A stretch of DNA of 64,000 bases from Pseudopyrenochaeta lycopersici (taxonomy: Eukaryota > Ascomycota > Dothideomycetes > Pleosporales > Pseudopyrenochaetaceae), in contig NHZP01000087.1 of NCBI GenBank assembly GCA_003313425.1, positions 55,950 to 119,949 of the forward strand, in the 5' to 3' direction. Under the pieces are notes generated by a model, which was not told the DNA's origin, made no database searches, and saw only the letters and a list, made by a program, of their open reading frames with translations. A program made the position numbers and the translations under genes. Below, in pieces: positions 6,101 to 58,089 of this stretch. How positions within the stretch are numbered: the stretch's first letter is position 1; each line of letters opens with the position of its first letter.

Positions 6101-7960
6101 TAATAGATTATTACTTAATGTCCTTAGATTAGTCTAAAATAGGTAGCTTATAGCTATCTTTACTTAAGACTTTAATATTAAGTATGTTCTTAGAAAGAAG
6201 AATATTATTACTAATACGTTATTACGTTACCTAAAGCTAGAAGGATAGGAACAGCTAGATAAGACTAAAGATAACCTTAAAGACTTTATTAAAAACGTAA
6301 TTACTAACCTTAAGTTTACCTTACTTACTAAGATAAGTAAGGTACTAGATAAGTAATACTTAGATAAGTCTAAAGTAATTACTTAGTTCTTAATAAGATT
6401 TAAGAAGCCTAAAGGCCTTATAAGGGTATAACTTTAAGTATAGAAAAAGAGGGTAATAAATTTCTTTATATAAGAAGAGTATCTCTTCTAAAAGTCTATA
6501 AAGAATATAGCTATTTATTAAGTTATAGATAATCCTAATCTTAAGACTATAGCTATATAGGAAATATATTAATAGATTAGTTATAGAGGAGTAAATAGCG
6601 TCTATTTAATACTTACTTAATAATACTAGGAAGAAAGGATGTATAAGGAGGTGTAACGCGCGATTATATTATGTAAATAGTACTAGCAAAAATTATTAAG
6701 TCGTGAGTAAGAGATACTAATAAATACTTACTATCACGCGTTATAGGAACGAGTTACTGTAGACGTTATTTATATACTATATTATTAAGGAAAGAAATTT
6801 AAGAATACCTTAGTAGATAGCTAGAGGTATAAGTAATAGCTAATAATAAGTTATCTACTATTACTAAGTTTTTATATAAGGAAATATTATGTTACTAGAG
6901 TATAATAAGGATACTTACTATAGACAGTAGACCTAATTTTAGAAAGGTAGTTAAAGCCCTTACTAAGATTTATTATATTAGGAGGATTTAGGTATTAGCA
7001 TATAACTCTTAGGCTATAGGAAAAATTAAGAGTAGTTATAAGCTAATATATAACGTACCAGCAAAGCTTCCTAGACCTTAGATTAATAATCTTCTAATAG
7101 TATTATAAGTAGACAGAATTTCTACTTAGAGTTAGACTAGATATTCTCCTTATTAGTTAGTTACTAGTTAGAATCTAGTACTTCTAATTAAGCTTACTCT
7201 TCTAACGTAGCAAATATTACTATTTAGATAAGTAATATTAAGAGGCTAGTTATTAGTAGTGCGAGCTATACAGCTAGATTTAAGAGATTAATTTCTTAAA
7301 GACGCAGTGTTAAGAACTAAGTACCTATAACGCGAAAAGAAGGAATATTAAGATAATTATAGGGAGATTTATTAAGAAAAAATTAAAGATAATAACTTTA
7401 TACTAATATAGAACTTAGCTAGAGATATTAATATATTAAGAGATAAGATACTTATAAGTAGATAGCTAGGACTATATAAAGTCTTTTATACTAACTAGGA
7501 TAAAGGTAACTATTAACTTATAAACCTTAATAGCACGTAATTTAGAAATACTACTCTAGAGTAGAGACCTAAACTATAGGTACCTTAAGATAAAAGTAAG
7601 GTTACTTAAGAGTATTAAGGTCGCGTAAAGCTATAGGGTTTATTATTATAGGATATTAAGGCTAACTTTTTACTACTACCTGTTTAATTTAATAAATCTT
7701 AAGATAATAAGTTTATAGTTATTAAGAATCTTAACTAAAATAAAATTTAGTTATAAGAGATAGAGAATAACTCTTCTATAAACTAAAATTTATCTAAAGA
7801 TATAATATAGCTAACTGTACGTAGCTATTTTATTATTATACTAAGATCTTTAATAAAGACTAAGAGATAATAATATATTTAAATGCCTAATTTAGAAATT
7901 AACCTTAACTTAGAAGATAAGCTTACTTAAGCTTAAAGGATAGGCTTTTATCTTAAAGTA
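3135..7960 (+). pseudogene. gag(C-term)-pol remnant of copy A
   Basis: Recognisable by alignment to B. The end of gag lies at 3150-3300. The protease region is near 3790-4060. RT is at about 4950-5400, with the block around QGATNLVIVF and FIDNITT (5290-5400). RNase H is at about 5740-6120 and the integrase at about 6540-7080. It ends in a purine-rich stretch around 7955-7975. Stops occur every few codons and all are of the TAG/TAA type expected from RIP of Gln and Trp codons. No function is possible. Confidence 0.7.
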
Positions 7961-8239
7961 GGGGAGGAGCTGTATTTCCTTTATTAAATCTTTATATATT
8001 TTTATATATTTAGTATTATATATATGCAGCGTAACCTTCTAGGTATATTGAAATAAGTTAAAATTAAAGAAAATATTATTTAGAGCTACTATGAGGTTAA
8101 TCTCCTTATTACGTGATTAAAAATAATAGAGAAACTAGGGTATTAAAGAATCTAGCTAATTAGTACTCACTAGGTAAGCTTAGTAAGACCTGCTAAACTC
8201 TAATTAGCTAGATAACTTAATATCGACGCTAATAGTAGT

Positions 8240-11200
8240 AATATAACTATAAGATTATAAAGTAATAATTTAAAGATATAAAATTAATTAAAGGAGGTAG
8301 AAGATAAGATAATTAATATTTTTAATTATAAAGGTAAGTTTATGGCTGCGTTTAGTAGCAAGATAAGATTTACTTAGGAAATATTCCTAAGTAGCCTACT
8401 CTTAAGAGGACTTACTATACTAGCTAATTAGGTAATAAAAAAGAGTTAAAATAATAGTAACTTTACTTTTTATTATATTAATAAGGCTTAGTAAGGCTTT
8501 TAAGTAAAGTTAAAGAGAGAAAAATACTCTCTACTACTTAAACCCCTTCTAAATCTTAAGCTTATAGTTAATCTTATAAGGCTTAAGTTTCTCTTTCTTG
8601 TTTCTTATTACTATCTATTAAAACTTTCTAAGGTAGATATATAAGTACTTATTAAGTATAAACTTTAAGTAATATTATAGCTACCTTAGACACCTAAATA
8701 CCCTAGGAAGTATCTACTCTTACTATTAAACCTAAATCTTTAACTAACTATAACTATAATTAAGCCTACACTAATAAAGATTATATAATTTACTAGTAAA
8801 GAAGCTATTAAAGACTATAGAACTAAGCTTAAGCGTTATAGTAATATTAAAGTCTCTTAGTACGTAGAGATTATAGTAGACGCTTAGGTTTAAAGCTTAC
8901 TAAAAGTCTTACCTACTAAATAGAAGAGTATAGTAGATAATGAGATAGTAGCTTTAGTAACTTACTTTAATAAGACTTTAACTCTTATTATTATAACTAA
9001 AGAATTTCTAAAAGGAAAACTAAGCTTAATATTATAATATAGAGGTATTACTACTTTTAAGTAGTAATATCTTATACTTGAGGATATAAAAACTTATAAA
9101 AAGAAGAAGAAAAAAGAGGTAGAGAGTGCGTTTACTTATATAGATAAATACTATTAGTATATACTAAAGTAGATTCTTATTCTATATTCTATTTAAGTAG
9201 TATACTTATACTCTAGTATAATAGTAGTCTAATAGTTATTATATAAAACTTTACTAGATAACTTTACTCTCTTTCTTAATATAGCTCTTTACTATTAATA
9301 ATAATCTATAAAGAGGAGATAAAATAGATTCATTAATATTACTAACTAAAAAGAAGTATATTAGTAAATAGCTAATATACTTACTTAGATAAAGAAGTAT
9401 TATAAAGATAGTAATACTAAGTTATATAGTATTATTAATAAGTATAAGATACCTACTTCTAAGATTATAGCTAATAATATAAATATATACTCTAGAGAAG
9501 AGTACCTTAACTAGATATTCTAAGTAGAGGTAATTAAATAGTATAAAAAGTAATTATATATAAGTTAAAGTATCCTCTAAATATAACTATTTTACCTAAG
9601 TAGCTATAGGAGAATTATTTTAGTATTATAAGTAGACTAAGTTACTTCTTCTTACTACTAGTAATAGTAAGAATAATACTATAACTAAGGCTAGCGTTTA
9701 AATAATAGCTTTAGTAGTAACTACTTCTAAACGTACTAGAAGCTAGAGCCTTACTACTTTATTAAATATTAGAGAGTATACGTAAGTTATTAAGCCTTCT
9801 AGTCTTAGTTACTAATATATAAGTAAAGAATTTAGAGGTAATACCTAGAATAAGCTAAAGAAGCTAAGTAAGCCTTAAATAGATAGGCTATCTATTATAG
9901 CTAAAAGTATTTAAGAAATCTCGCTAGAAGAATAATATTTAAGAAAAAATAAGTATACTTAATAATAAGTTAAGGTAGTAGAAGCCCTTTAAAAGAAATT
10001 CTATCTTAGGTAGTATTAGAGATTCCCCTCTATATAGCCTCTTACTCTAGATAAGATTTACGTAAAAGACTTAAAGTTAGTAAAGTAGTTACGTAAAGAG
10101 TTAGAAATACTACTAGTAATTCTTAATAATAGTATTAATATTTAAGACTTAATTAAAGAAGATATCTTACTTAAAATTAGTATTATAGTAAAATTATATA
10201 AAAGATACGCTTATATAAATAAATAGTCTACTCTAATTAAGATAACTATATTACTTATATTTAAAAAGTTAAATAATAGTAAGCGTATTTAGCTAATTAA
10301 TACGTAGTATTAAGAATATATAAATTTTAGTACTCTTAAGAATAAGTAGAGTAGTTATATATTTAATTAATATAAGGTATACTAGTAATATTACTATTAC
10401 GTAGCTAGTAAGATAAGCCTACTTACTTAAAGTCTTAGTATTTTAAATATAATCTAGCTACTTAAGATACTATACTATTACTAATATTAATAAAGTTAGC
10501 TTTAATTAGACATAGTAACTTAAGTTCTATTCTTAGCTCTATTTTAAAGAGACTATACGTATTAAGACCTAAAAAGCTATTATTATTACTTAGTAAAAGT
10601 TTAAGTTTAAATTAACTAAGATAAAGTTACTAAAGCTTTTAGTTAGAGAGTATATATTAAAGTATTTAAGGAGTATAGTAGTATTACTTATAATACTTTT
10701 AGCTAGATTTTTAAAGATCCTAAGCTAGTCTTAATCCTTAATTAGAGTTTTAATATATACCTTTACTATACGCAGTTAATTAATAGTAAGAGTAACCTAA
10801 GCTAGTAGTAAGTAAAATATTATTTATTAATATAGTAGTTTATACGTAGTAACGTTAAGTATTAGCTACTATACGTAGTCTTATAAAAAGAACCTAACCT
10901 AATTTCTTACCTTTACTATATAAAATATACTAAGCCTAAGGATAGAACTTACTTCTATTATATTAACTTAAATATCTCTAAAGCTATATACTTAAGTAAG
11001 AGTATAGATATTATCTAAGAAAGTATCTCTTTTAATAATAAGAATAAAGATAACTATATATAGATACTATATAGCTTTTATAATATTATCTATAAGTACT
11101 AGAACTAGTAAGAAAACTTAAGACTTAAGAACTCTACTAGTTATATTAAGGGATAGGATAATAAGAGGGACTAGCTAGAGAGTTATAGTGCGAAATTCTC

Positions 11201-12290
11201 TAACGTTAAATAGTTTAGCTAGCCTTATAAGGCTAGTTATATTTATATCTCTAATCCTAGGCTACCTTATAGATCTACTAGGCCTATAACTAAGTAATAA
11301 TAAACTATCTTACCTTAGTTTATTAAGGTAGAAGAGGATATAACTATAATAGAGATTCCTAAGATAGGCTCCTATTAAGAGCTTACTACTACCTTTTGAA
11401 GCTTAACTACTGCGCTAAAGTTACCTTTTAGACACTTAAATTACTATAGCAGCGTTAAGTAGGCCTTTCTTAGAAATATTATACTAGTATACTTATTAAA
11501 TATTACTAAGGCTATAAACTATTAGCTAGGATAGGACTCTTTACTAGTCTTAAAGGAACTAACTAACTTATTTATAGATTAGCCTAATCCTAGTTTAATC
11601 TATTAATTTATTAAAGATACTAAAAAGGCTATAGTAAAGATAATTAAAGAGTATTAGGTTATCTACTAATATTATAAGAAGCTTACTTTTAAGAAAGATA
11701 AAGACTTTAGCATACTTAATAAGTTATTCTTCTTAAATAAAAGTATAAATTTAGCTTAAGAAGCTAAGTAGTAGAAGTATAATAAGTAAGTTAAATAACG
11801 TACTACCCTAGATAAAGTTCTTAAGGAGCTTTCTAATAATCTTAATAGTAAAGCTGCTAAGATACTAGATAAAAAGGAGAAATTAAGGCGCCTATTAATT
11901 TAAAGCGTAACTAAGTCTCTATAAACTTTAACTTATACTAGTCTATAAAGGTTATTATTATAGTAATAAGTACTAAGTTAATATTTACTTAGTTAGTTAC
12001 TTATAGAACCTCCTCTTATATCTTCTTATCTTAAGTAAGCGTAACCTAATATAGGCGCGTTAAATCTATATATACTATTATAAACTCCTTATTATAGTGA
12101 GAGGATTTAAGAGATTAAGAAAAAGAAGTAAAGATAATTTAGCTATACTATTAAGAGCCTAACTAATTAGTAGTTACTAAGTAAAGCTTAATAGACTCTA
12201 ATTAGCTAAGTACTTCTAAGTTATTTAAAAGATACTAGAATAATAGTATACTTACTAATATCTTTAATAGTAAGGTTAAAGCGTGTTTTC
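8240..12290 (+). pseudogene. Third ORF (oxygenase-like) remnant of copy A
   Basis: Homologous over its length to the third ORF of B. It includes the block TYFYYINLNI, whose pair equivalent to HxD is at 10959-10967 (Tyr and Asn), then a 'LPYRST' block with Tyr at 11268-11270, 103 codons after the first site and in the same frame. B and C have this spacing exactly. CAC/CAT-to-TAC/TAT and GAC-to-AAC are RIP-type changes, so the ancestral residues were probably His, Asp and His. Heavily interrupted. Confidence 0.65.
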
Positions 12291-12575
12291 TTTTATTTTT
12301 CTTACTATCTTTAAGAGATTTAATAATAAAGTATAAGAGTTTATAAAGAAACCTATATAATTATAAGGACTACTTCTCTTATAAAAATATAGCTTATACT
12401 ACCTTCTCTTTATTTATAGAGTAATAATTTCTTTTATTTTTTTCTTTTATATCTTTTCTTAGCTCTCTTTTCCTTCTGCTAGTAGTCCTACTTATAAGAA
12501 GAAGAAATAATAAGTAAGATTTATAAGCTTAATAAGACTAAGCTTAATAAGACTAAGCTTAAAGTAAGAGTAGTT

Positions 12576-12932
12576 TATACTATTATATAAGGTACCTAAG
12601 TAATTAAGTAATAATAAGTTTCTTTTATTAGCAAAATTTAGTAATAAGAATTAGAGATGCGAAAGATCTTAATATTATGCACTATATACTATAATAATTT
12701 ACTTTAAAACTAAGATTTTATAAGGAAGCTAGTATATTAGCTATATTAATTTAATAAGATTTTAGACTATTTTACTTATTACTTTTAATTGGGCTCTATA
12801 CTTACCTTTGTTTCTAGCAGACTGTACAGGCAGGGCTACTTCTGTTATTCACGCATATTTAATTCTAGCGTCACCTCTTATTCACAACACCAGAACTGCG
12901 GGATTGTGCCGAACTACCTTGTTTACTCCATA
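12576..12932 (+). repeat. 3' LTR of copy A
   Basis: About 357 bp. Aligns with the reverse complement of the 372-bp LTRs of B from end to end. The last 140 bp are little mutated and keep the run 'cagactg.acaggcagggct' and 'cacaaca.cagaactgcggg'; the first 200 bp are strongly RIPed. There is no matching 5' LTR in the window. Confidence 0.8.
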
Positions 12933-12992
12933 CTATAAGTTACTTAAAGCCTTAAATTAGAGTTATAATTACACGAATAGTGCACGATAAGG

Positions 12993-28053: not shown

Positions 28054-31000
28054 GTTAGTAACTTACTTAAATATATCTAACTAGCCTTAATTAACGTAAA
28101 TTACGCGTATTCTTAATTATAGTATTAATTTCTAGAATTATAGATAATATATTGTACCTTAGAAGAGTAGGACTATATTTAAAGACTTCTATAAGGAACT
28201 AGTTAAGTAACTATTATATGTTTAGGAATATATAGTAACTAAGTAGATAATATCTTATAGCTTATATATTAATAAACTCCTTAACTTAGTTAGTGCGGCT
28301 GCTTAAGTATTTAAGAATAACGCAGCTCTTATAGCTAAATTTAGAGGTATATACTAGTTTAATACTTAGTTTCCTATAGTTAAAGATATTAAGGACTATT
28401 AAGCTAAGTAAAGTAATAAGTTATAATTAGCTATAAGCTACCTTAAGAGCTTACATAAGCCTCTTTTTAATTAGGTTATTAGTGTATATATAAATTTAGT
28501 TATATATAGCTATTTAGGCGTTACTAACCTTATAGTCCTTCTATAGTAAGTTAAGATTATAGATCTTACGCTATACCTTAATATAAAACTTATCTTATAA
28601 CTTAAAGATCTAAAAAGGTATTAAGATAAGTTTATAAACGTAACTAATATTAGTAATATAAAAGTAACTTTATAAATAATTCCTAGCTATATAACTTAAT
28701 CATAAGATAATAAGAACTTAAGAGCGTTAGCTACTAAGAATAAGGTTTAAAAAGGTAATATAGACGTTTATACTTATACGCGTAAGAATAATAATAAGTA
28801 CTTATTCTAGAAAAGAGTACTAAAATAGTTTAAGAAGCTTAACTACTTAAGTAAGACGCGCACTAATATAGTTATAAAGGATAACTAATAGCTTATTAAA
28901 TAAAGACTCTAGATATATATATATAGGCTTATTATCCTTTAGATTTATACTATTAAAGTTATAAGATTAAGTAAGTAATTAAGTTAGTTCTCTTATTAAA
29001 GTAGTCTAAGAGTATAGTTACCTATTAAGCTTTAGTAACTTTAAAGTAAGTTATAATTTATAAGAAGCTCTTAATATTTATAGTACGCGTCTATTAATAA
29101 GATTATCTAGTTCTTTTAACTTACTTCTTATCTAGAGGTAGAACTAATCTAATTTAATAATATTAAGGTAACTTTAAGAAAAGATATTATATATCTAGGT
29201 AACTAATTATAATTAATACTATTAGCCTTAGAACTAATTAGCTTAAAGTAAACTTACGCAGCTACTTAATTTAGAGACAGCTAAGTAAGGATACTTAAAG
29301 TACTTAACGTAAACTTAGATATCTTAAAAAGTATTAAAAGATAAGAAAATTCTATTATTCTAGCTTTCGCCTTATATACTTCATATAAGTATAAGAATAA
29401 GAAATCTATTATAGCTAAGATACTTTTATAAATAAAGCTATATAAGAAAGTTAAAATCTAGAAGTAGTTTAAGCTCTTAAAAGAATAGTACTATAAAACT
29501 ATTAACTATAGTTAACTATTAGATAAGTAAAGTAACTATATACTTAATCCTAATTATATCTATTACTTTTACTTTACTTATATTATATCTTATATAGGAG
29601 TATTTTATTATAGTATAAACTACTATTAGATCTAAGAAGTCTTACTTATCTTATACTTTTATAAAGATAAGATTAAAGAATATTAAGCTAACTTAGTTAT
29701 ATAAGTTCTTTTTATAAAGTTATACTAAGGTAGCTGTACTTATAAGAATCTCAAGAGCTACTAATATAAGCTTATTTAAACTATACTTAATATTAACTAA
29801 AAAGTATTTATAAAGATAATAAAGCTTTAACCTTTAATTAATAAATTTAAATAAATAAGGAGTATTATCTATAACGTCTTTAGCTAGATCTAGAAAGATA
29901 AGGAACTAGTTAAAATTATTAAGAAAAGCTTTAAGATATATAACTACTATACTTACTAGATTAGTAGTAAAGGTAACCTTAGTTAGGGACGTATAATATA
30001 TTACTTATTACTATAGTAGCTAGTCTATAGAGATCTTAAATATTACCTAATCTATATAGCTATTTAAAGGGAGCCTTACCTTATCTTATACCTATACTAC
30101 GCTAAATATATAAAACTAGGTAATAAGACTTACTTCTACTACGTTAATTTTAATATTACTTAAGTAGTTTACTCTAGACGCAGGGTAGATATAATTTAAG
30201 GTAGTATCTCTTTTAATAATAAGGATAAATATAACTATACTAAGATATTAGGAGGCTTCTATAATATTATTAATAGTTACTAAGAATAGTATAAGAACTT
30301 AGGTTAAGATAATAGTATAGGGCTAATTAAATTATAGAATAATACTGTATACTTCTTATAGGAACTAAAAGAGAAGTAGCCTAACGTATAATAGATAAAG
30401 CAGCTATATAAATAAGGTAAAGTAAAGATTTTAGATCTACCCCTGCTTTATAGCTTAACTAGACTATCTACTATTAAATAATAAACTATACTACCTTAGT
30501 ACGTAAAAGTTAATAATAATATAGAAACTATAGAGGTTCCTAAGATAAGTAGCTACTAATTAACTATAACTACTTATTAGTATCTTACCAAGGCTCTATA
30601 CACGCCCTCTAGTTACTTAAATAAATATAGAGGTATTAAATAGCCTTTCTTAGGAGCTACGTAACCTATTTATAGTTATCTTATCTTATAAGTAGTAGGT
30701 AGCCTTATTAGGTGGGATAACCCTGTTGTTTAAGACGCTATGTATAATATCTTTAACCTGGATATAAGTACCTACGAAGATATTATAGTAGAAATCTAAG
30801 CTAGCTAAAAAGAAACTAACGTGTCTCACAAGCGAGCGCCGCGCACAAGCGAGCGCCGCACCCTACCAAGTTTGAGCACCTCTACCAGCGTACAACTTAA
30901 CCATAAATTTAAGTAATCTATAGATATTAATATGCAAGCTTAAGTAGCACCTATAGTATCGTTTTTATACGTGCGCGAGTTATGCCTAGTCTCTCTGCAC

Positions 31001-44410: not shown

Positions 44411-45013
44411 TTCATCATACTAACGCCATTAAAGGTCGTCTTGTCTCAAGCAGTCTAATTCTTAGTAACTATGTCCTTCATTACTAAGGTAGTATCTCGC
44501 AGCATTAGGCCATGTGACTCGCGGTAACAAAGTACGTGTAGCGTATGTGAAACAACACTTAGAGAGTAATTAAGGGGCATACATTAGCGGTAGCTAATAT
44601 CTGTAGGGAGGTTGCAGTAGATATTGTAAGTTTCCTAACGTTACCTCTATTAATAATATTTTACGCGATATTTTTATTTAAGCTTATTTACTTAGTAGTA
44701 TATAAATAAAACTTATAGATCATAGTAAACAGTTGTAGAACATTAGCTAGAAATAATAGCGTTATAGATTTATAGGTAAAATTAGTTGTCTTATCACTTC
44801 TAAACGTTAACAGTGCTTAGATACTAACACCTGAACTAAGGTCGAAAAGTCCTAAGACTCTCTCTATCTGATTAAAAATAAGCAAGATAAATCTAGGATA
44901 TACTGCTTAACTAGCGCAAATACCTCTTCGCATAGACAGGATTAAGCTAACAAAATAGCTCTTCCTTCCTTCCCCTATCCTCCTAAGAGCTATTACCCCT
45001 CCTCCTTAGGTAA
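44411..45013. other. Unassigned DNA left of giant element B
   Basis: About 600 bp, AT-rich towards the right, with mild RIP signature. No gene was recognised. It ends in the GTAA that is duplicated on the other side of B. Confidence 0.4.
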
Positions 45014-45385
45014 TGTGGAGTTAACAAGGTGGTTCGGCACAATCCCGCAGTTCTGGTGTTGTGAATGAGAGGTAACGTTGGAATCCAAGCGTGCGTAAAT
45101 AACAGGAGCAGCCCTGCCTGTGCAGTCTGCTAGAAACGAAGGTAAGTATGGAGCCTGATTAAAAGTAATAAACAAAATGGTCTGAAATCTTATTGAATTG
45201 ACGTAACTAATGCACTAGCTACTTTGCAAAATCTCAGTTTTGAAGTGAATTCTCGTAGTGTGTGGTGCATGGTTTTTGGTGCATGACGTTGAGATCTCTC
45301 GCATCTCCAAGTCTTATCATCAAATCTCGCTGACAAAGGAAACCCATCATCACCTGATTGCCCAGGTACCCTGTGCAACGGCACA
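45014..45385 (-). repeat. 3' LTR of B
   Basis: 372 bp. It differs from the other LTR at about 45038 (C against T) and about 45078 (C against T). A short open frame in it (45190-45384) is also present in the other LTR and is not a gene. Confidence 0.95.
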
Positions 45386-45397
45386 AACCTCCCCTAC
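45386..45397 (-). other. Polypurine tract of B
   Basis: The minus strand reads GTAGGGGAGGTT directly before the LTR; it confirms orientation. Confidence 0.75.
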
Positions 45398-45490
45398 TTC
45401 GAGCTCAGTCCCATTGAGCTCACAACTCCTGCTTATTGTTCCTTCTCCTCGCAAGTAGAACTACTAGCAGGAGGAGAAGAGAACTGGGAA

Positions 45491-45525
45491 AAGGAAAGAA
45501 AGAAAGAAAGAAAGAAAGAAAGAAA
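45491..45525. repeat. (AAAG)n microsatellite
   Basis: About eight perfect tetranucleotide units in the 3' untranslated part of B; CTTT-rich remnants sit at the matching place in copy A (about 12420-12470). Confidence 0.9.
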
Positions 45526-45768
45526 TTGTTGCCCCACGAACAAAGGGAAGGCAGCATAAGCTGTATTTCTGCAGGAGGAGCAGTCCTCGTGATCGTGCAG
45601 GTTCCTTTATGAACTCTCGCACTTCATCGTTAAATCTCCTAAAGACAGTAGGAAAAACAAAAGAAAATACGCCTTAACCTTACTGTTGAAGACGCTAGTA
45701 AGTATGCTATCGTCCTAGTATCCCTTAAACGACCTGGAGGCACTCAGCCAATTAGAGTCTGTCAAGCC

Positions 45769-48700
45769 TTACTTCTTCTTCTTAATCTCCTTAATCCTCT
45801 TGCTGCGACGAGGAGTCTGCGATGGTGCATGCAGATTTGACGCGCTTATGTTAGGTTGCGCTTGCCTAGGACGAGAAGGCGCAGGAGGAGGTCCCATAGG
45901 TGACTGACCAGGCGAATATTGACCCAGCGCCTGTTGCTGCGATAACGACCTTCGTGAACTGGCATGAGTTGAAGTCTGTGGAGACTCAGTAGCGCTTCGG
46001 ATGGACAGGCGCCTCGGTTTCTCCTCCCTGTCCAGCATCCTAGCAGCCTTACCATCAGGATTATTAGAAAGCTCCTCAAGAACCTTGTCTAGGGCAGTGC
46101 GTTGTTCAACCTGCCTATCGTGCTTCTACTACTCAGCTTCCTGAGCTGGATTTATACCTTTATTTAAGAAGAACGACCTGTTAGGTACGCTAAGGTCTTT
46201 GTCTTCTCTAAAAGTAAGCTTCTTATAATGCTGGCAGACAACCTAATGCTCTTTAATTATCTTTACTGTAGCCTTCCTAGTATCCTTAATAAATTGACAG
46301 ATTAAACTAGGGTTAGGCTGATCCGTGAACAAGTTAGTTAGTTCCTCTAAAACTAGCGGAGAATCCTATCTTAGCTAACAGTTCACAGCCTTAGCAATAT
46401 TTGACGAGTACACTGGTATAATATCTCTAGGAAAGGCCTACTTGACGCCGCTATAGTGATTTGAGTGTCCAGACGGTGACTTTGGCGCGGCAGTTAAGCT
46501 TTGAAAGGCAGCAGCGAGCTCTTGATAGGAGCCTATCTCAGGAATCTCTATCGTAGTTATGTCCTCTTCCACCTTAACAAACTAAGGCAAGATAGTTTAT
46601 CGTTGCTTAGTTGCAGGCCTAGTAGATCCATGAGGCAGCCTAGGATTAGAGATGCGGACGTGACCAGCCTTGCAAGGCTGACTGAACCATTCAACGTTAG
46701 GGAATTTCGCACTGCAACTCTCTGGCTAGTCCCTCTTATCGTCCCATCCCTTAATGTAACTAGTGGAGTTCTTGAGTCCTGAGTTTTCTTGCCAGTTCTG
46801 GTACTTGTGGATGATATTATGAAAGCCACGTAGTATCTGCGTGTAGTTGTCTTTGTCTTTATCGTCAAAAGAGACGCTTCCTTAGATAATGTCTACGCCT
46901 CTGCCTAAGTATACAGCCTTAGAGATGTTTAAGTTAACGTAATAGAAGTAAGTCCTATTCCTAGGCTTAGTGTATTTTGTGTAGTAAGGGTAGGAAATTA
47001 GGTTAGGCTCTTTTCGTAAGACTGCGTACAGCAGCTAGTATTTAACGTTACCTCGCATAAGCTGCTGTATTAACGAATGATACATTACCTGACACTAGCT
47101 AAGGTTGCTTTTGCTATTAATTAGCCGCGTGTGGTAGAGGTATATGTTAAAACTTTGATTAAGGATTGAGACTAGCTTAGGATCCTTAAAAATCTAGCTG
47201 AAGGCGTTGTAGGTAATGCTGCTGTATTCCTTGAATGCTTTAACATATACTCCCTAATTAAGAGCCTTAGCAACTTCGTCCTAGTTAATTTGGACTTAAA
47301 CTTTTACTAGGCGATAACGATAGCTCTTTAGGTCTTGATGCGTATAGTCTCCTTGAAACAGGGCTGAGAACAGAACTTAAGTTACTGGGTCCGATTGAAG
47401 CTGACCCTACCTATCCTGACGATAGTATAGTATCTTAAGCAGCTGAACTGTGTTTAAAATACTAAGGCTTTGAGTAAGCAGGCCTATCTTGCTAGCTACG
47501 TAACGGTAATGTTGCTAGCACACCCTGCGATAGTTGAATACCTGACTACCCTGCCTATCCTTAAGAGTGCTGAAATTCACACACTCTCAATACCAGGTAT
47601 TAATCAGCTGGACGCGCTTACTACTATTCAACTTCCTAGACGTGAGCAACGCGGTTATCTTGACTAGAGCAGACTGTTTGTTTATATAGTTGCATCCCTT
47701 GCATAATTTTACTGCGATGCTAGTTTTAAGCGAGATGTCTTCTTTAATTGAGTTTTAAACGTTAATACTGTTGTTAAGTGTTGCTAACAGTATTTCTAAC
47801 TTATCGCGTAACTGCCTTACTAACTCTAAGTCTCTTACGCGAATCTTATCTGGAGCGAGAGGCTGCGTAGAGGGAAATCTCTAACGCTGCCTAAGACGGA
47901 ATTTCTCTTAAAGGGCCTCTACTGCCTTAACTTGTTGTTAAGTGCGCCTGTTTCCTCTTAAACGTCGTTCTTCTGGCTAGATTTCTTAAATGCTTTTAGC
48001 TGTAACAGACAGCCTGTCTGTTTAAGGCTCTTCTAGCTTCTCTAGCTTATTCTAGATATCGCTTCTAAATTCTTTGCTTGTGCGTTAATAACTAAGACTA
48101 GAAGGCTTAATAACTTACGTGCGCCCTCTAATATTTAATAAAGTGGCGGGGCTTTGGCTTCTAGCATGTTTAGAGGCAGTTATCGCTAAGGCTGTTGTCT
48201 AGACGCCAGCCTTAGTCGCAGAATTGTTTTTGCTATTGCTAGCAGCAGGAAGAAGTAACTTAGTCTGCTTATGATACCTGAAATAATTCTCCTGCAGCTA
48301 CTTAGGTAGAATAGGCATATTTAGAGGAAGCTTTGTCCCTGCATGTAATTACTTTCTATACTATTTGATTACCTTTATCTAGAATATCTAGTTAAGGTAC
48401 CCTTGTCTAGAGCGCGTGTCTATATTGTTAGCTGTGATCTTAGAGGCAGGTATCTTGTGCTTATTAATGATGCTACGCAATTTGGCGTTGCTGTCCTTAT
48501 AATACTTCTTTATCTAAGCAGGTATGTTAGCTATCTGCTAACGTACTTCTTCCTAGTTAGTGATGTTAATAAATCTATCCTGCCTCCTCCTCGCAGATTA
48601 TTGTTGATAGTAAAGAGCTGTATTAAGGAAGGGAGCGAGGTTGTCTAGCGAGATCCTGCGCAGTAACTATTGGACTGCTGTCACGCTAGAGTGCGAGTAC

Positions 48701-49698
48701 ACTACCTGAACGGAATATGGAATAAGAACCTGCCTTAGTACATGCTGATGGTGTTCGTCTAGATAGGCAAACGCGCTCTCTGTCTCCTTTTTCCTCTTCT
48801 TCTTGTAAGTGTCTATATCCTTAAGTATAGGATATTGCTGCTTAAAAGCAGCGATGCCTCTATACTGCGATATTAGGCTTAGTCTTCCTTTTAGAAATTC
48901 TCTAGTTGTGATAATAAGGGTTGAAGTCTTGTTAAAGTAAGTTGCTAAGGCCACTATCTAATTATCTACTATGCCCTTCTGTTTAATAGGCGAGACTTGC
49001 AGTAAGCTTTAAACCTAAGTGTCTACTGTGATCCCTGCGTGCTAAGGGACTTTAACGTTACTATAACGCTTAAGCTTAGTTCTATAGTCTTTAATAGCTT
49101 CTTTGCTAGTGAATTGTACGATCTCTGTTGGCGCAGGCTTAATTGTGGTCGTAGTTGGTTGAGGATTTGGGTTTGACGGTGGGAGTGGACGCTTCCTAGG
49201 CTGTTTGGGTGTCTGAGGCGGCTGTGACATCGCTTGAAGTTTGTACCTGATAGGCACTTGTGTGTCTACCTTAGAAAGTTTTAATAGATAGTAATAGGAA
49301 GTAAGAAAGAGAAACTTAGGCCCTGTAGGATTAACTACAGGCTTAAGATTTGGAGGGGGTTTGAGCGGCGGAGGGTATCTTTCCCTTCCTAACTTTACTT
49401 GAAAGCCCCGCTAAGGCTTAACGACGTAGTAAAAGGTGAAGTTGCTATTATTTTAACTCCTTCCTGTTGCCTGATTGGCTGGCATAGCGGGTCCTCTTAA
49501 GAGTTGGCTACTTAGGAACGTTTCCTGAGCGGGTCTTATCTTACTGCTAAACGCAGCTATAAACTTACCTTTACACTTAAAAATATTAATCATCTTATCT
49601 TCTACCTCCTTCAATTGATTCTGCATCTTCGAATTGTCGCTCCGTGATCTCGTGGTTGCGTTGCTGCTGTTGGCGCAGATATCAAGTTGTCCAGCCAA
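45769..49698 (-). pseudogene. Third ORF of B: large protein with 2OG-Fe(II) dioxygenase-like domain, RIP-damaged
   Basis: About 1,300 codons downstream of pol in the position of env. N-terminal part: basic/Pro-rich PPQTPKQPRKRPLPP, then LSLISQYRGIAAFKQQYPIL. C-terminal domain: VLFSALFQGDYTHQDLKSY (about 47340-47390), KPRNRTYFYYVNLNI, GRGVDII, GSVSFDDKDKDNY, GFHNIIHKY, KAGHVRISNPRLPHGSTRP, KQR then TILP (46570-46960). HGST with Arg ten residues later matches the distal His and 2OG-binding Arg of PHYH/clavaminate-type oxygenases. The upstream site reads Y-V-N at 46933-46941, where H-V-D would be expected; CAC-to-TAC and GAC-to-AAC are RIP changes. Spacing of 103 codons is conserved in copies A and C. 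Tail: Ser/Pro/Gln-rich, ending in a basic run (RRSKRIKEIKKKK). No signal peptide or membrane segment as in env was seen. The start is uncertain; in-frame ATGs lie near 49.2 and 49.63 kb. The family call is inference. Confidence 0.62.
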
Positions 49699-49750
49699 TC
49701 AGATTTCAGCAGGTCTCGCTAAGCTTACCTGGCGATTGCTGATTGGCTAG
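49691..49750. repeat. 60-bp hairpin motif, copy 2 (start of third ORF)
   Basis: Inverted ends AGCCAATCAG and CTGATTGGCT enclose a centre with CAGGTCTCGCT and ACCTGGCGATTG. It is the same unit as 54457-54517 with few changes. Copy A has both units too (about 3425-3486 and 8151-8212). Confidence 0.75.
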
Positions 49751-49999
49751 ATCCTTTAACACCCTGGTTTCTCCACTATTTTTGATCGCGCAACCAGGAG
49801 ATTGACCTCCCAGCGGCTCTAAATGATATTTCGTTTAGTTTTGACTTATTTTTATGTGTCTAGGAGGTTGCGCTGCGTGTGTGTGATACTGAATGTGTAA
49901 AAATATGCGAAAATTTGACAAAGGAAATACAGCCCCTCCCCTGCTTTAAGATGAAAGCCCGTCCCCTGGGCTTAAGCAAGCTTATCTTCTGAGTTAGAA

Positions 50000-52900
50000 C
50001 TAATTTCTGAATCAGGTATTTGAACGTATTGTTGTCTCTTAGTCTCTGTTAAAGATCTTGGTATGATGATAGGATGGCTGCGCGCAGTTGGCTGTATTAT
50101 ATCTTTAGATGAATCCAAGTCTGTAGGAGGATTATTCTCTTTCTCTTGTGACTGAATCGCGTCTTAGTTAGGATTTTTAATGACTGTGAACTTATTATCT
50201 TGAGAGTTGTTAGATTGAGCAGGCGGTGGTGAAAAGTCGGCTTCAGCATCCCACAACGAAGGATCCTATAGCTTTGCACGACCTTGATGCTCTTGAGCGA
50301 CCTCGCTTTTATCTTGAGGTACCTACAGCTTAAGTCTCTATCCTGGGGTAGTGTTTCTGAATCGCGTGCTGTTAAGGTCTATGAGTTGATAGTTGCCTTT
50401 ATTCTGGTTAGTATGAAAGACTTTGTATGGTCCTAGCCATCTGCTCGCAAGCTTCTTGTCTCTTGACATGTTAATGTCTCTAGCTGAGTCCTACATTAGT
50501 ACGAAGTCATTGTCTTTGATTTCTTCTTGACGAATCTCCCTGTGATTGTCCTAATATTCCTTCTTTTCGCGTTGTAGGCGCTTAGTTCTCGACACTGCGT
50601 CCTTAAGAAATTGATCTCTTAAATCTAGCTGCATAGCTCGTACTGCTAATAACTGGCCTCTTGATGTTACTTGTCTGAATGGCAATGTCTGCCATGTTGG
50701 AAGAGTAAGCTTAATCGGAAGTACTGGATTCTGACTAGTGACTAACTGATAAGGAGAATATCTAGTCTGACTCTGAGTAGAAATTCTGTCTGCCTATAAT
50801 ACTGTTAGAAGATTATTAACCTAAGGTCTAGGAAGCTTTGCTAGTGCGTTGCATATTAGCTTGTGACTACCCTTAATTTTTCTTATAGCCTGAGGGTTGT
50901 ATGCTGATGCCTGGATCCTCCTAATACGATAAATCTTAGTAAGGGCTTTAACTACCTTTCTGAAATTAGGTCCGCTGTCTATAGTAAGTGTCCTTATTAT
51001 GCTCTAGTAACATAAGATTTCCTTATATAAAAACTTAGCGACAGTAGATGACTTATTGTTAGCTATTGCTTGTGCCTCTAGCTATCTACTAAGGTATTCT
51101 CGTGCAATTACGATAAATTTCTTTCCTTAATAATGCGGCATGTAAATAACGTCTATAGTAACTTGTTCCTATAATGCGTGACAGTAGGTATTCGTCAGTA
51201 TCTCTTGCTTGCGACTTGATGATCTCCGCTGGCACTGTTCACATGATGCAATCGTGCGTTGCACCTCCTTATGCATCCTTTCCTACCAGTATTGTTGAGC
51301 AAGCATTGAATAGACGCTGTTTACTCCTCTGTGACTAATCTGTTAATGTACTTCCTATATAGCTATAGTCTTTAGATTAGGATTATCTACAACTTAATAA
51401 ATAGCTATATTCTTTGTAGACTTTTGGAACAGATAGCCTTCTCGCACAAAGAAATTTATCGCCCTCTTTTTCTACGCTTAAAGTTGTGCCCTCGTGAGGC
51501 CTTTAGGCTTCTTGAATCTTGTTAAGAACTAAGTAATTGCTTCTAACTCGTCTGAGTATTGCTTATTCAGTACCCTACTTATCTTAGTAGGCGAGGCAAA
51601 CTCGAGGTTAGCGACTAGGTTTTTAATGAAATCTTCGAGGTCGTCTTTAGTCTCGTCTGGCTGTTCCCATCCTTCTAGCTTCGGATATTGTAACAACGTA
51701 TTAGGAACGACATTCTTCTTTCTAGGAACATGCTTAATGTTAAAGTCCTAGGTAAGGATAGCTGCGAGCTACCTGTTTTGGACTGACCCAGGAACGTCAG
51801 GCGATGATCTGTTGAGTTAATGAATAAGTGTCTGAGCGTCCGTTTTAATGGTAAAATGTTGTCTATATAACCAGGTTCTGAATTTCTTTAGCGCCTATAA
51901 TACTGCCTTGCACTTAAGCTTTGTTAAGTGCCAGAGACTCTTAGCTTTTGACTATATTGTACTTTTAAATTAACACAGATGTCTTTTTCCGTCTGCTCTA
52001 ATCTGTTTAAGAGACGCGCCTGCGCCTTCCTTACTCGCGTCTACTGCTATAAAAAGCATACCTCTATTCTTATAATCAGGACTCGCTAACACTGGGGCTA
52101 AAGTAATGTATTGCTTTAAGGTACGTATAGCCTCTTATTAAGCCCCCTGCTATGTCCATTCAACGCTAGTCCTTATTAACTAGAACAGGGGCTTCGCGCG
52201 AATAGTAAAGCTAGGCACCCATATCCTGTAGTAGACACAGATACCTATAAACGCCCTTACTTCTTTCACGTTTCTGCATTCTGGCTAATCTAGAATCTTA
52301 GCTACTTTCTGTTAATCTAGATGTCTTCCTTGCGCAGTAACCTTATATCTAACTACCCCTAATCTAGAGACTCTCTAATAACACTTCTTGCCTGAAATTA
52401 TAGCTCTAGCTCTTTCTACGTTAGCTAGAGCCTTGTCTAGCTGCTGAATATGTTCTAATATATATCTTCTTACTCTAGGAAATACTTCTTCTCCTCTATA
52501 GTTAGTTTTAGGACCGCTAGTAGTAATATTATCTATAAAAGGAATAGTATATAGCTAATAATCCTTTATAATCTTTGTAACTACTCGCTGAAAGACTGTA
52601 ACTAAGTTAGTTGCGCCTTAAACTATTGTACAGTATCAAAGCAAACTAACTGGCGTATAAAAGGTAGTTATGTCTCTGCTGTCTAGATAAAGTGTGATCT
52701 AGTTATATCCTGAGAATAGATCTATAAGAGACAGAATACGACATCTACTAAAACGCTTAGAGAATTTATCTGCTGTCAGAGGCAGATTAGCATCCCTGAG
52801 AGACACTGCGTTTATCTTAATTAACCTAAGTATCATCTAATAACTCTTATCCTTCTTTTTAACTAGAAACTATAAGTTTCTGTACTGACTGGCGCATCTT

Positions 52901-55900
52901 TCTAGTACCCCTCTATTAAGTCTGTTATTAAACATTGTAACTACCTCTTCCTTAATAGCTCGCGCTATTAGGAACAATTTTTCTTGCTAAGCTTTATGTT
53001 TAATAGTCCGTATCTTATATAGAGGATATACATCCTTAATAATTTGTCCTGTCTTAGAGAAAGTGAAAGCGATCGCGCCTTCTCTGTTTATTAACATTTT
53101 AATAAATAGCTGAACTTCTAATTTTGTTAACTCAGATCTAAACTTTTGTGAGGCTAGCCTTTCTGGTGTTAATCTTATGCCCTGTAGGAATACTGCATGT
53201 CTGCATTTAAAAAGGTGATTAAAAGGCCCTATATTAGGAGGTCTCAGACTTTTTCTTAAGAGTTGTAGTTTAACAGCATGTCGCTTCCAATCCTTACGCC
53301 CAAACTCCTTAATATCTAATGCCGCAGGAATATCTACAGGTCGCACCTTGTTAGCTACCCTCTTATGCAGGGTATTGACCTAACTGCCTGTGTACTTCCT
53401 TCTCTTTTCCTATTGCGCCTGACGGTTAAGTTCATACATGACTAAAAAAGACTCTAATTCTCGCACAGCTGAAGGATCCTTAGAGGCTCTAACTCTATAG
53501 CTTATTACTTGCTTTACCCATTCTTTAAATTGCTGCTTATTATTAGTTGTAAAAATAGGTAAAAATTTGCTAAATCTAATAGAAGCTTTTATAAACTCAG
53601 CCTCCTGAATATACTTAACTTAAGTATAAGATGAATAAGATTCTGAACTGAAACATCGTCCTGGGTATTTTCTACTTAAATCTAGATACTCCTCCCTAGA
53701 AAGGGTGTCTGCTACATGTTTTCCTTATCTTTAGGAGTTAGCATATGGTCTCTTGGATGCAGCGGAGCAGGATTAGAGGCTATGAAGATGGCGTTTCTGT
53801 TTCTATTCTTAGAAATGATCCTGCACGTGATCCTTCCATATACGTTATACTGAATTGATAACCTTGCTGAAGCGCACCAAGGTCCACCTAAAATCGCTAA
53901 TCTCGTTAGGTTTTGAACGATCCTGAAGTGACTGACAACAGTCACCTCTCCTACTTTGACTGGGACACTCTACGCAGTTCCTACAAAAGGATTAGTGCTT
54001 CTATTCGCAGTAACCACTCTATCTTGATGTGAGCTACCTTGCTTATAGTCTTTATATGTAAGCTTTAATGCCTTGGCCGCACTATATCTCAAAAGGTTTA
54101 TCTGTGCGCTAGTGTCAATGAGACACTTTACTGCATGCCCATTGAATGAGGCCTAGCAGGTTGGAAGGTCACACTGCACGTAGGCTATGCCTATCTTCTT
54201 TCGAATTATCGTGGCTTCTTGTTTAGTAGGATTAACTAAAGCTTTATGCTAAGTGTTATATGTTCCTGGGGCTTCATGCCTGGTTTATGCATTAAAAGTC
54301 CTAAATTGTATTGAGTTAAGCTCTAAATTCGGTCCTTTTTTAAGACTAACCGTCTCTACTTGATTTGATTTAACCTTTTCTTTATCAGAAAAATGCCTCT
54401 GAACATCCCTAATGACATGGGCGGACGCGGGGTTGTGCGGGGTAAGGCACTGCAGTGTTAGCTAATTAGGTTCTAACAGGTCTCGCTTAGCTGACCTGGC
54501 GATTGCTGATTGGCTAGCTGGCCTAATACTTAATTCTACGGCGTTTACGCCGGCTAACGACGCGGCAGGCTTATTAATCGCTTTCAATATATTTCTAACT
54601 TGTTTTTGAAGCTGATGTTAGCTTATAAGGTTTCTAAAAGTCACACCACGCACCTTCTGATGCAGTATGGTGGTGGCGATACGGTTTGGATGCGGGCCTA
54701 GTAAATGACAGAGCTCTGTGTTAGTAAGGCTGTTATTCTGGTTCTTCTTTTTCTTGTTCTGACTAATAAATTTAGGCTTAGCTTTTAAATCCTGAAAGCT
54801 TCTATTGTTGTCTAGAGGCTGTATGAGAGAGAATGGCTTGTTATAGGCTTAGCTGGCGAATGGAATTGGCTCCACTTGTTTAAACTCCTTAATATCTATT
54901 AGTTTGAATGCAGTGTTGCCTCTTATAACAGGCATACGATGGTCCTTGACTATGACTTGCTTTGGTTGTTTAGAATGAGGAGGTTTGGCAGGAGCTTGCT
55001 TCTGAACTTTGCTCTGCCTGACTTTCTTAAGAACTGGATCTTTCCTGACATTCTGACGCGTTTAAGAGCGTGTTGCTGCATAAGTTGAGCTAGTATTTAC
55101 TGCTCCTTCCTTAAAAGCACTAAGAATAATGTCCTGAGATGTGACCTTATTGAGGGTAAAACACGCTTTAGTTGAGCCTCTTGGTAATATCCTAACGTTC
55201 TGAAAGTTTAGTAGGTCCTTGGCCGGGCTTATGGCTATCCTGCTATATCTATCTTCTGCAATTGTATTTGTATTAGGACTAACTACCTTCTGTTGCTGCA
55301 TAGCTGGTAGTCTAAGCTTTCAATATTAAGCAGGCCTTAAGTCTACTCTATTAAACTTCTCTAGATATACTGCTAATGCTGGCTGATCTAAGATATTGTT
55401 AGTGACTCTGTAATACTCCTGAATTTTCTGTTTTAACTAATAGAGCTGCAACGTTTGGGGTGCAGTTCCTTAGATTTGCCTTAACCTCTTGTGCGAAGGA
55501 CTAAAATAGTAAGTCTTATATCTAACTTCTCTATTCTACTTAAAGCTAATCTAGCTAAGATGTAAAAGTAGCTGATATAGCTTATATTCTCTAGTAATGT
55601 GACTAGGGAGGTTGCATATATTACAAGTGTTTTGATATTCACGTCCTTGGATAGTGATTGCGCCTTGCTGAGGATTCAAGTTGCGAGGAGCTGTTATTAT
55701 GTACGAGCCATTATTCCTTTCTGATAGTGGCTGCTTGGTATTATCTCTTAAGACGACTCGGCTAATGAAGTACGCGTACGTAGCTGGGTTCCTTAGAATC
55801 TGACTAAGCTTGGGATGAACTATTATCTTGTTGACCTCAGCTAGGCTAATCTTCTAATCGCTGAGGGCTGAAATAAGGTCTTAAACCTCTGGATCTACAC

Positions 55901-56786
55901 TAGGCGGAAGAGCAGGCCTAGCTTCCTCTTGAACTTTGCTTTTCTTATACTTATTAACTGCGTCTTTTAGCTGCTTAGCTGTTAATGTTTTCTTTTCTTA
56001 ATTAAGGATTTGGTGTGTAAGCTTAGCCTCTCTTTCTGCATAACTAGGGGATATCTGTTTTATCTCCTCTCTCTGGCGGTACACGCGCTTAAGATACGTG
56101 TAAATCTTCTTAATATTAAAACTCTCTAGCTTATCTAGAATCGGCCCTTTATGTATGTGGATAAAGATTATATCTTAGTCTTCTCTTAGAAGGCCTCTGG
56201 CGAAAAAGAAGCCAGCCTCTGTCCTATGTAGCTGGCCTATCTTAATACAAGTGTTACTGTACGCTGCGAAGTTGGTTGAATACTTAGATAGTCCTAGGAA
56301 TTTTCTTAACGTTTTAGAAACATAGGTCTCCAGGAACGCTTGCGTTCCTATGCGTTGAGCTACATCTTAATCGTGCTAATGCTCTTTTATTGCTTCTTAA
56401 AGCTTCTTCTAGTCTGGTACCCTGTATGGCCTTATTTTCTTAATAAAGCTTCTGCACATAGTGTTACAGAAGTCTAGAAGGATTCTTATCTTTTAATAGT
56501 TGTTATAGCCACTATTATCTGCCTGGCGATTGAAGTTATCTAGGAACTTAGTAACGTCTTTTCCTGTAAATAGAAAGTCTTTCCTTGCCGGCCTTATAGG
56601 CACAAGTACTTTGCTAGTATCTATAGTATGTTTCTTAATGACCTCAATAGCTGGCGTAAGATCTGATCTGAATGACAGCGAATCTGGTGTCGATTCAGCT
56701 ATGAGGATGGCTGAAGGCTGAATCCTGAATAGGCTGCTGCAGCCCTTCAGTATAACTGAATAAGGAGACTGCAACTACTAGGCAGT
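50000..56786 (-). pseudogene. gag-pol polyprotein of B, about 2,260 codons with RIP stops
   Basis: Minus strand, one frame as far as I could follow it. Retro-gag: RKDFLFTGKDVTKFLDNFNR and GTQAFLETYVSKTL (56.3-56.6 kb). CCHC knuckle CNICNLPSHITREY (about 55600-55640, last Cys now Tyr). Protease: AVKCLIDTSAQINLLRYSAA (about 54080-54140) and LAILGGPWCASA (about 53880). RT: EEVVTMFNNRL, then ILSLIDLFSGYN, VQGATNLVTVFQR and FIDNITT (52.5-52.95 kb; the FIDD site reads FIDN). RNase H: MLFIAVDASKEGAGASLKQI and HFTIKTDAQTL (51.83-52.09 kb). Integrase: SCEQCQR (zinc-binding), VTIDVIYMP, LTIDSGPNFR, then the GPYKVF-type C-terminal box (50.4-51.3 kb); the third acidic residue reads Lys. No chromodomain was seen, unlike D and E. 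Stops are TAG/TAA at former Gln/Trp codons. Confidence 0.85.
54457..54517. repeat. 60-bp hairpin motif, copy 1 (gag/protease junction)
   Basis: Same unit as 49691-49750: TCTCGCT, GACCTGGCGATTGCTGATTG, and left arm TAGCTAATTAG (RIPed) pairing with CTGATTGGCTA. It lies between the gag end and the protease of B. Confidence 0.75.
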
Positions 56787-57037
56787 TCCTTGCTAACGCT
56801 AATAATTGACTAAAATCTGATACTATACTACTTCTGAATTGTTTCCTGATCGTTCATAGTTGTTCTCGTTTTTTGTTTTCTGTTATCTTATTCTTGTTCG
56901 TCTTCTTGTCCTGCTACTACTAAGTTAGCTTCCGCTCATATTATAGGAAGTCTTAATTTGTCATAGCAAGATAACAAGGATACAGCCTCAACAGAGCTGG
57001 TCCCTGTCAACTCTTGGCTCCAAAAATGTAGAGGGGG

Positions 57038-57470
57038 TGGCCGCAACAGCGCCATCCCTCTCTAAGGTTCCGAAGGCTGGCCGCAACAGCGCCATCCCTC
57101 TCTAAGGTTCCGAAGGCTGGCCGCAACAGCGCCATCCCTCTCTAAGGTTCCGAAGGCTGGCCGCAACAGCGCCATCCCTCTCAAAGGTTCCGAAGGCTGG
57201 CCGCAACAGCGCCATCCCTCTCTAAGGTTCCGAAGGCTGGCCGCAACAGCGCCATCCCTCTCTAAGGTTCCGAAGGCTGGCCGCAACAGCGCCATCCCTC
57301 TCAAAGGTTCCGAAGGCTGGCCGCAACAGCGCCATCCCTCTCAAAGGTTCCGAAGGCTGGCCGCAACAGCGCCATCCCTCTCAAAGGTTCCGAAGGCTGG
57401 CCGCAACAGCGCCATCCCTCTCAAAGGTTCCGAAGGCTGGCCGCAACAGCGCCATCCCTCTCAAAGGTTT
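57038..57470. repeat. 40-bp tandem repeat in the 5' leader of B, about 11 copies
   Basis: Unit GGCCGCAACAGCGCCATCCC followed by TCTC(T/A)AAGGTTCCGAAGGCT. Copies are nearly perfect; the only common variant is T or A after CCCTCTC. GC-rich and not RIPed. It gives open frames in several phases that are artefacts of the repeat. Confidence 0.97.
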
Positions 57471-57652
57471 GTCAGGGTCAAACAGACACCCAGCTCTTTC
57501 TAGGTAATCCTATGATCTCTGTATCGCAATGTAGCGCTCTTATATTTATGTTTTCGACGTTGACAGTTCAATGCTATGTAGGCTTTTTCTGCTCTCATTA
57601 GCTGTAGCCTAACCAGAACAGACTGTTGTGCCCCTTAGGCTTCGCCATTATA
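57471..57652 (-). other. Leader of B with probable primer-binding site
   Basis: The minus strand just inside the 5' LTR reads TATAA then TGGCGAAGCCTAAGG (57633-57647). TGG is what pairs with the CCA end of a tRNA, so this is the likely primer-binding site. The tRNA was not identified. Confidence 0.5.
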
Positions 57653-58024
57653 TGTGGAGTTAACAAGGTGGTTTGGCACAATCCCGCAGTTCTGGTGTTG
57701 TGAATGAGAGGTAACGTTGGAATCTAAGCGTGCGTAAATAACAGGAGCAGCCCTGCCTGTGCAGTCTGCTAGAAACGAAGGTAAGTATGGAGCCTGATTA
57801 AAAGTAATAAACAAAATGGTCTGAAATCTTATTGAATTGACGTAACTAATGCACTAGCTACTTTGCAAAATCTCAGTTTTGAAGTGAATTCTCGTAGTGT
57901 GTGGTGCATGGTTTTTGGTGCATGACGTTGAGATCTCTCGCATCTCCAAGTCTTATCATCAAATCTCGCTGACAAAGGAAACCCATCATCACCTGATTGC
58001 CCAGGTACCCTGTGCAACGGCACA
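57653..58024 (-). repeat. 5' LTR of B
   Basis: 372 bp; see the 3' LTR. Followed on the plus strand by GTAA (58025-58028). Confidence 0.95.
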
Positions 58025-58089
58025 GTAATAATACTATAGTTATAAATTTAGTAATTATAAATACACTTAAGTTCTAGAAGCTTCTTATA

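Follow-up and report, generated by a model that had tools for sequence, protein, structure and literature searches.

A third open reading frame resident in a Ty3/Gypsy lineage of Pseudopyrenochaeta lycopersici is predicted to encode a PhyH-type 2-oxoglutarate oxygenase

Ty3/Gypsy elements of the orchid Phalaenopsis carry an open reading frame (ORF) for an AlkB-like N6-methyladenosine (m6A) RNA demethylase, whose activity has been reported in vitro (PMC9289625), and fungal DNA transposons carry TET/JBP dioxygenases that are proposed to evade methylation-based silencing (Kojima 2025, PMC12730594). That fungal survey reports having found no retrotransposon with TET/JBP (PMC12730594). Boty-like Gypsy elements of Botrytis carry an extra gene, the antisense brtn (PMC8365987, from its cited title). 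The window considered here, 64,000 nucleotides of Pseudopyrenochaeta lycopersici contig NHZP01000087.1 (positions 55,950 to 119,949), contains a Ty3/Gypsy long terminal repeat (LTR) element, B, with a third ORF (ORF3) between pol and the 3' LTR. The ORF3 product is best explained as a predicted PhyH/DUF1479-type 2-oxoglutarate (2OG)-Fe(II) oxygenase, preceded in the protein by an extended helical stretch and a C-x-C...C-x-x-H module.

The orchid elements share with B the Ty3/Gypsy carrier and an extra ORF for a 2OG-Fe(II) oxygenase with H-x-D...H but are 25-kb plant elements with an AlkB/ALKBH5-like enzyme (PMC9289625), whereas B is a 13-kb fungal element with a predicted PhyH-type fold. The TET/JBP transposons are likewise fungal mobile elements with a captured 2OG-Fe(II) oxygenase, although they are DNA transposons and the nine ORF3 relatives scanned have no TET/JBP among their Pfam matches; the PE-type TET/JBP has HxE (PMC12730594), whereas the ORF3 family has HxD, with D in 136 of 138 relatives. 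The Boty-like elements resemble B as fungal Gypsy elements with an extra gene and are set apart by description only, brtn being antisense and without an oxygenase assignment in the passages available (PMC8365987). Solved DUF1479/YbiU and PhyH-type structures (PDB 7twe, 4rgk, 6akz, GriE, and proline hydroxylase H11) have 9-15% identity to the model of an ORF3 relative and are cellular proteins of ~240-450 residues among the matches listed, too short to accommodate the N-terminal and C-x-C regions. An oxygenase gene in a fungal LTR element was not among the literature matches listed, which is no proof of its absence. Compared with the known transposon-borne 2OG oxygenases, what is new here is another oxygenase family on another carrier.

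ORF3 of element B extends from an ATG at 49230 to a TAA at 45771-45769 and contains 45 internal stops. The first-pass annotation had described a coding region of ~1,300 codons between pol and the 3' LTR; the region is present, its length is 1,153 codons, and the rest of the frame noted earlier (49698-45772, minus strand, 1,309 codons with 47 stops) is part of a spacer. A protein search with the element B frame, stops being given as X, scored only the 7,991 candidates with the most words in common and returned nine stop-free matches (E 8.9e-178 to 2.3e-32, 28-52% identity), and two further searches enlarged the set to 138 relatives. In the nine aligned relatives F-(R/K)-H-(I/V/L)-D lies opposite F-Y-Y-V-N of element B, and both the distal H and, ten positions further on, the R are retained. 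Among the 138, the motif columns hold H in 136, D in 136, H in 135, and R in 133, and all four residues are found in 130, in keeping with the oxygenase layout that had been proposed from element B, where each motif residue lies at the site claimed for it (Y 46941, N 46935, H 46632, and R 46602). The C-x-C...C-x-x-H set is represented by C in 122, C in 122, C in 132, and H in 124 of the same relatives. Close relatives mostly exceed 1,000 residues and have a helical N-terminal region, and in 13 of 15 inspected the last 30 residues contain more K+R than D+E, forming a basic tail. Judged from its stop-free homologues and conserved columns, ORF3 is a real coding feature and not a product of chance.

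The predicted model of one relative (P0003) revealed a double-stranded beta-helix that matches oxygenase structures, the nearest solved folds including proline hydroxylase, GriE, KanJ, SnoK, and EctD. PhyH (PF05721) matches were obtained in eight of nine close relatives (best E 5e-5), and precomputed PF05721 assignments were present in 16 of the 81 rows of a wider protein search. Of the families anticipated by the first-pass annotation, PhyH is the one that fits; TET/JBP and AlkB were absent from the Pfam matches to E 10 in nine relatives, which excludes neither, and comparison of the P0003 model with known structures leaves TET/JBP possible. The ORF3 protein very probably has a PhyH-type 2OG fold, and intact copies would probably encode an active oxygenase with Fe(II) bound by H, D, and H and 2OG bound by R.

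The host genome (62.7 Mb, 188 contigs) was searched with relative P0002, giving at least 41 matches from 39 of 231 candidates scored, and the best 30 of the 41, element B among them, were made into loci. With the LTR of B as query, the family LTR was found ~0.5-1.1 kb downstream of the matched ORF3 part in all 30 loci at 85-100% identity, and a second LTR was located ~8.1 kb upstream in each of the four copies for which the upstream side was retrieved. Two merged genome searches gave at least 62 ORF3 places, which were compared with 150 ribonuclease H (RNase H) matches. At 58 of the 62 places an equally oriented RNase H lies no more than 14 kb upstream, and at 52 it lies 2.3-5.1 kb upstream, each RNase H of the 52 close pairs being used once; the control counts were 0 of 62 for the opposite strand and, for the downstream side, 3 of 62. 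The places without an upstream RNase H are C10:115648, C165:8850, C29:10949, and C32:156579. With 58 of 62 places accounted for in this way, this genome gives no sign of ORF3 as a host gene standing alone. Contigs C74 and C23 hold a second subfamily, whose main pol pieces have ~52-59% amino-acid identity to those of B, with 75% for RNase H and 42% for ORF3. In the C74 copy, LTR stretches agree over at least 246 bases without a mismatch and H, D, H, and R are intact; the four sites of the C23 copy are Y, D, H, and R. ORF3 is thus resident in a lineage of Ty3/Gypsy elements, which has kept it in numerous copies and also in a second, diverged subfamily.

The copies also carry the signature of repeat-induced point mutation (RIP). 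Across the 30 copies the first motif site reads H in 10 and Y in 20, the second D in two and N in 28, the distal site H in 13 and Y in 17, and the last R in 19, Q in six, and a stop in five; all codon differences at these four sites are of the C-to-T or G-to-A type. The proposal that Y-V-N of element B is a RIP-type derivative of H-V-D is thus backed by the relatives and by 30 copies from the same genome. When one copy is compared with the other 29 over the whole of ORF3, 11,361 differences emerge, of which 10,616 are C-to-T or G-to-A changes, 7,569 of these at CpA/TpG and 2,422 at CpG. This pattern is the RIP signature; consequently, the breakage of the copies, whose mapped ORF3 part contains between 22 and 88 stops in 29 loci and two stops in the remaining one, bears the mark of host defence. 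The third Cys codon of the C-x-C...C-x-x-H set (window 47520) is unchanged in all 30 copies, the sole such codon among eight conserved sites read.

As RIP masks the usual ratio of changing to silent substitutions, transversions, which RIP does not make, were counted in ORF3 alone against one copy that is itself extant. The unique transversions comprise 25 changing, 20 silent, and one stop, where 82% changing would be expected (p 3e-5), and the shared events nine changing and nine silent. By part of ORF3, the changing and silent counts are 10 and 8 (N-terminal), 3 and 3 (middle), 6 and 7 (catalytic), and 6 and 2 (tail). Between subfamilies 0.78 of silent and 0.42 of changing ORF3 sites differ, a C-terminal estimate that covered only 34 codons being set aside; the two copies of the second subfamily differ at 0.12 of silent and 0.03 of changing sites, a comparison confounded by RIP. 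Non-RIP changes in ORF3 are biased against amino-acid change, and this bias, together with the difference between subfamilies, argues that ORF3 was in use while the family spread. Leaving its target aside, an ORF3 protein of this kind is likely to be an active, selected oxygenase, and the existence of stop-free relatives makes the enzyme directly testable.

A tree of catalytic domains, built from 89 of 91 rows before the last relatives had been found, placed ORF3 of both subfamilies in one branch of 11 (support 100/100) with P0002-P0008, P0087 (Phaeosphaeriaceae sp.), and P0090. Within it the ORF3s of the two subfamilies do not resolve as sisters, 37% of bootstrap trees uniting them in one group, and the tree hence does not show a single capture. 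Members of the wider family come, among others, from Alternaria tenuissima, Bipolaris maydis (with Y in place of the distal H), Penicillium, Aspergillus granulosus, Geoglossum, Trichoglossum, Wilcoxina, and several lichen-forming genera. Five ORF3 matches lie 4.07 kb downstream of RNase H at 56-59% identity (contigs C60, C23, C5, and C48), which suggests a third subfamily of the same layout, with the caveat that RIP also depresses these identities.

Since the iron-binding residues are kept in intact relatives, the elements may gain from a chemical modification that they make to a molecule of the host or of their own. In its most likely role, the ORF3 protein would enter the nucleus, as its basic tail suggests, act there on DNA, RNA, or a chromatin protein, and so relieve silencing of the element or aid its replication. 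A nucleic acid or chromatin target is proposed tentatively, by analogy with the TET/JBP enzymes in DNA transposons of fungi and the AlkB-like enzyme in the orchid Gypsy elements, and a counter-silencing role is a guess. The broadest version, an old fungal Ty3/Gypsy lineage, perhaps Pezizomycotina-wide, with a PhyH-type oxygenase that erases a DNA, RNA, or histone silencing mark from the element or rewrites it, is rather doubtful. If true, mobile elements would have turned a third oxygenase family, in addition to TET/JBP and AlkB, against host silencing, and this would be the first such family known from a retrotransposon of fungi. A further oxygenase family in a heavily RIP-exposed fungal Gypsy lineage would point to repeated recruitment by mobile elements, and a PhyH-type enzyme acting on nucleic acid or chromatin would broaden the roles for which the family is known.

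That the motif arose by chance, or as a RIP artefact in noncoding sequence, might be supposed from the 47 stops of the frame noted earlier and from the lack of a Pfam match with that frame; long stop-free homologues, conserved columns, and the fold match refute this explanation, leaving it a negligible probability. That ORF3 is passive cargo, a host gene picked up a single time and since then transported without a function, might be supposed from the broken state of nearly all copies in the genome (2 to 88 stops in 30 loci). Against this, the breakage is of RIP type, the non-RIP changes are skewed to silent, and the second subfamily, at 42% identity, keeps all four residues in one copy and three of the four in the other. 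With the stop-free relatives and conserved sites also taken into account, passive cargo was rejected as highly improbable.

Several observations weigh against an active, selected oxygenase directed at silencing. The P0003 model has a mean predicted local distance difference test (pLDDT) score of 64.3 and a predicted template modeling (pTM) score of 0.44, the PhyH match of P0003 scores 15.7 bits where the curated cut-off is 22, and PDB sequences yielded no convincing match in profile searches. Eight of the 138 relatives are without at least one of the four residues (P0011, P0022, P0048, P0060, P0084, P0086, P0088, and P0098), with gaps in two of them (P0086 and P0088). The sign of selection comes from 46 unique events, only 13 of the changing or silent ones being in the catalytic part (6 changing, 7 silent), and 28 of the 46 are singletons, possibly recent neutral changes or errors. 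The ORF3-carrying copies are themselves RIP-mutated and hence were unprotected if ORF3 opposes RIP or methylation. Finally, PhyH-type enzymes of known substrate act mostly on small molecules, and small-molecule enzymes (proline hydroxylase, GriE, KanJ, SnoK, and EctD) are among the nearest folds, so the oxygenase might act on a small molecule with an indirect gain for the element, for example via the host. A length of >1,000 residues, the helical N terminus, the C-x-C...C-x-x-H set, and the basic tail are atypical of metabolic PhyH enzymes, and the RNase H found upstream at 58 of 62 places, with no evident stand-alone host gene, also speaks against such an activity, which we regard as unlikely. 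A replication helper whose substrate is part of the element itself (Gag, integrase, or genomic RNA), as opposed to a silencing antagonist, would fit the retention of ORF3 alongside pol in diverged subfamilies and its bias against amino-acid change; this too has a minor share of the probability.

The features of the window are collected in Table 1. The LTR pair of element B is 99.5% identical over 373 columns and is flanked by GTAA at 45010-45013 and 58025-58028, a possible target duplication that is short (4 bases). The domain order of protease, reverse transcriptase (RT; from copy L031), RNase H, and integrase is that of Ty3/Gypsy, the Pfam scan of pol having given no RT match in B itself. 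The pol frame ends with a stop at 49974-49972 and is followed by a spacer of ~0.74 kb before ORF3. A 40-base tandem repeat lies close to the 5' LTR inside the element and varies in copy number, with 10.8 units in B (57038-57469), 3.8 in L031 (2039-2190), and 2.8 in L033 (7813-7922). Element A aligns with B at 80.4% identity over 9,844 columns, ORF3 included, and reads Y, N, Y, stop at the four motif sites.

Table 1. Features of element B and related copies in the window
Feature	Position	Strand	Basis or remark
Ty3/Gypsy LTR element B, ~13.0 kb	45014..58024	-	paired LTRs, TG...CA ends
Element B 5' LTR	57653..58024	-	
Element B 3' LTR	45014..45385	-	
pol aspartyl protease, element B	53886..54152	-	PF13975, E 6.3e-7
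pol reverse transcriptase, element B (approximate)	52560..52770	-	colinearity with RVT_1 match in copy L031
pol RNase H, element B	51808..52137	-	PF17919, E 9.3e-18; PF17917, E 8.2e-17
pol integrase zinc-binding domain, element B	51217..51381	-	PF17921, E 3.4e-12
ORF3 of element B, 1,153 codons + stop	45769..49230	-	predicted PhyH-type 2OG-Fe(II) oxygenase protein
C-x-C...C-x-x-H set, possible zinc site, N-terminal to oxygenase domain	47509..47694	-	conservation
Predicted oxygenase domain, approximate limits	46354..47280	-	carried over from residues 590-898 of the P0003 model
H-x-D site	46933..46941	-	element B reads Y-V-N (Y 46941, N 46935); relatives H-x-D
Predicted distal iron-binding His	46630..46632	-	intact in element B
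Arg at His + 10, 2OG-binding by analogy	46600..46602	-	intact in element B
Element A, RIP-mutated copy of B's family including ORF3	3154..12938	+	alignment
Fragment C of ORF3, 0.42 kb, codons ~668-807	29854..30270	+	68.7% identity

Among the 150 RNase H matches, 17 at 29-30% identity sit in stop-free frames of 843-1,228 codons (contigs C28, C7, C3, C6, C11, C19, C23, C29, C56, and C1); they represent another retroelement family that is seemingly untouched by RIP, while the family of element B is heavily mutated. Elsewhere in the window, an open 478-codon ORF on the minus strand (37540-38976) encodes an FAD-binding domain (PF01494, E 1e-22) in a region of higher G+C than the repeats to its left. 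Another repeat family forms inverted arms at 25048-27355 and 61689-63996, which are 2,308 bases long, 97% alike, and 34 kb apart.
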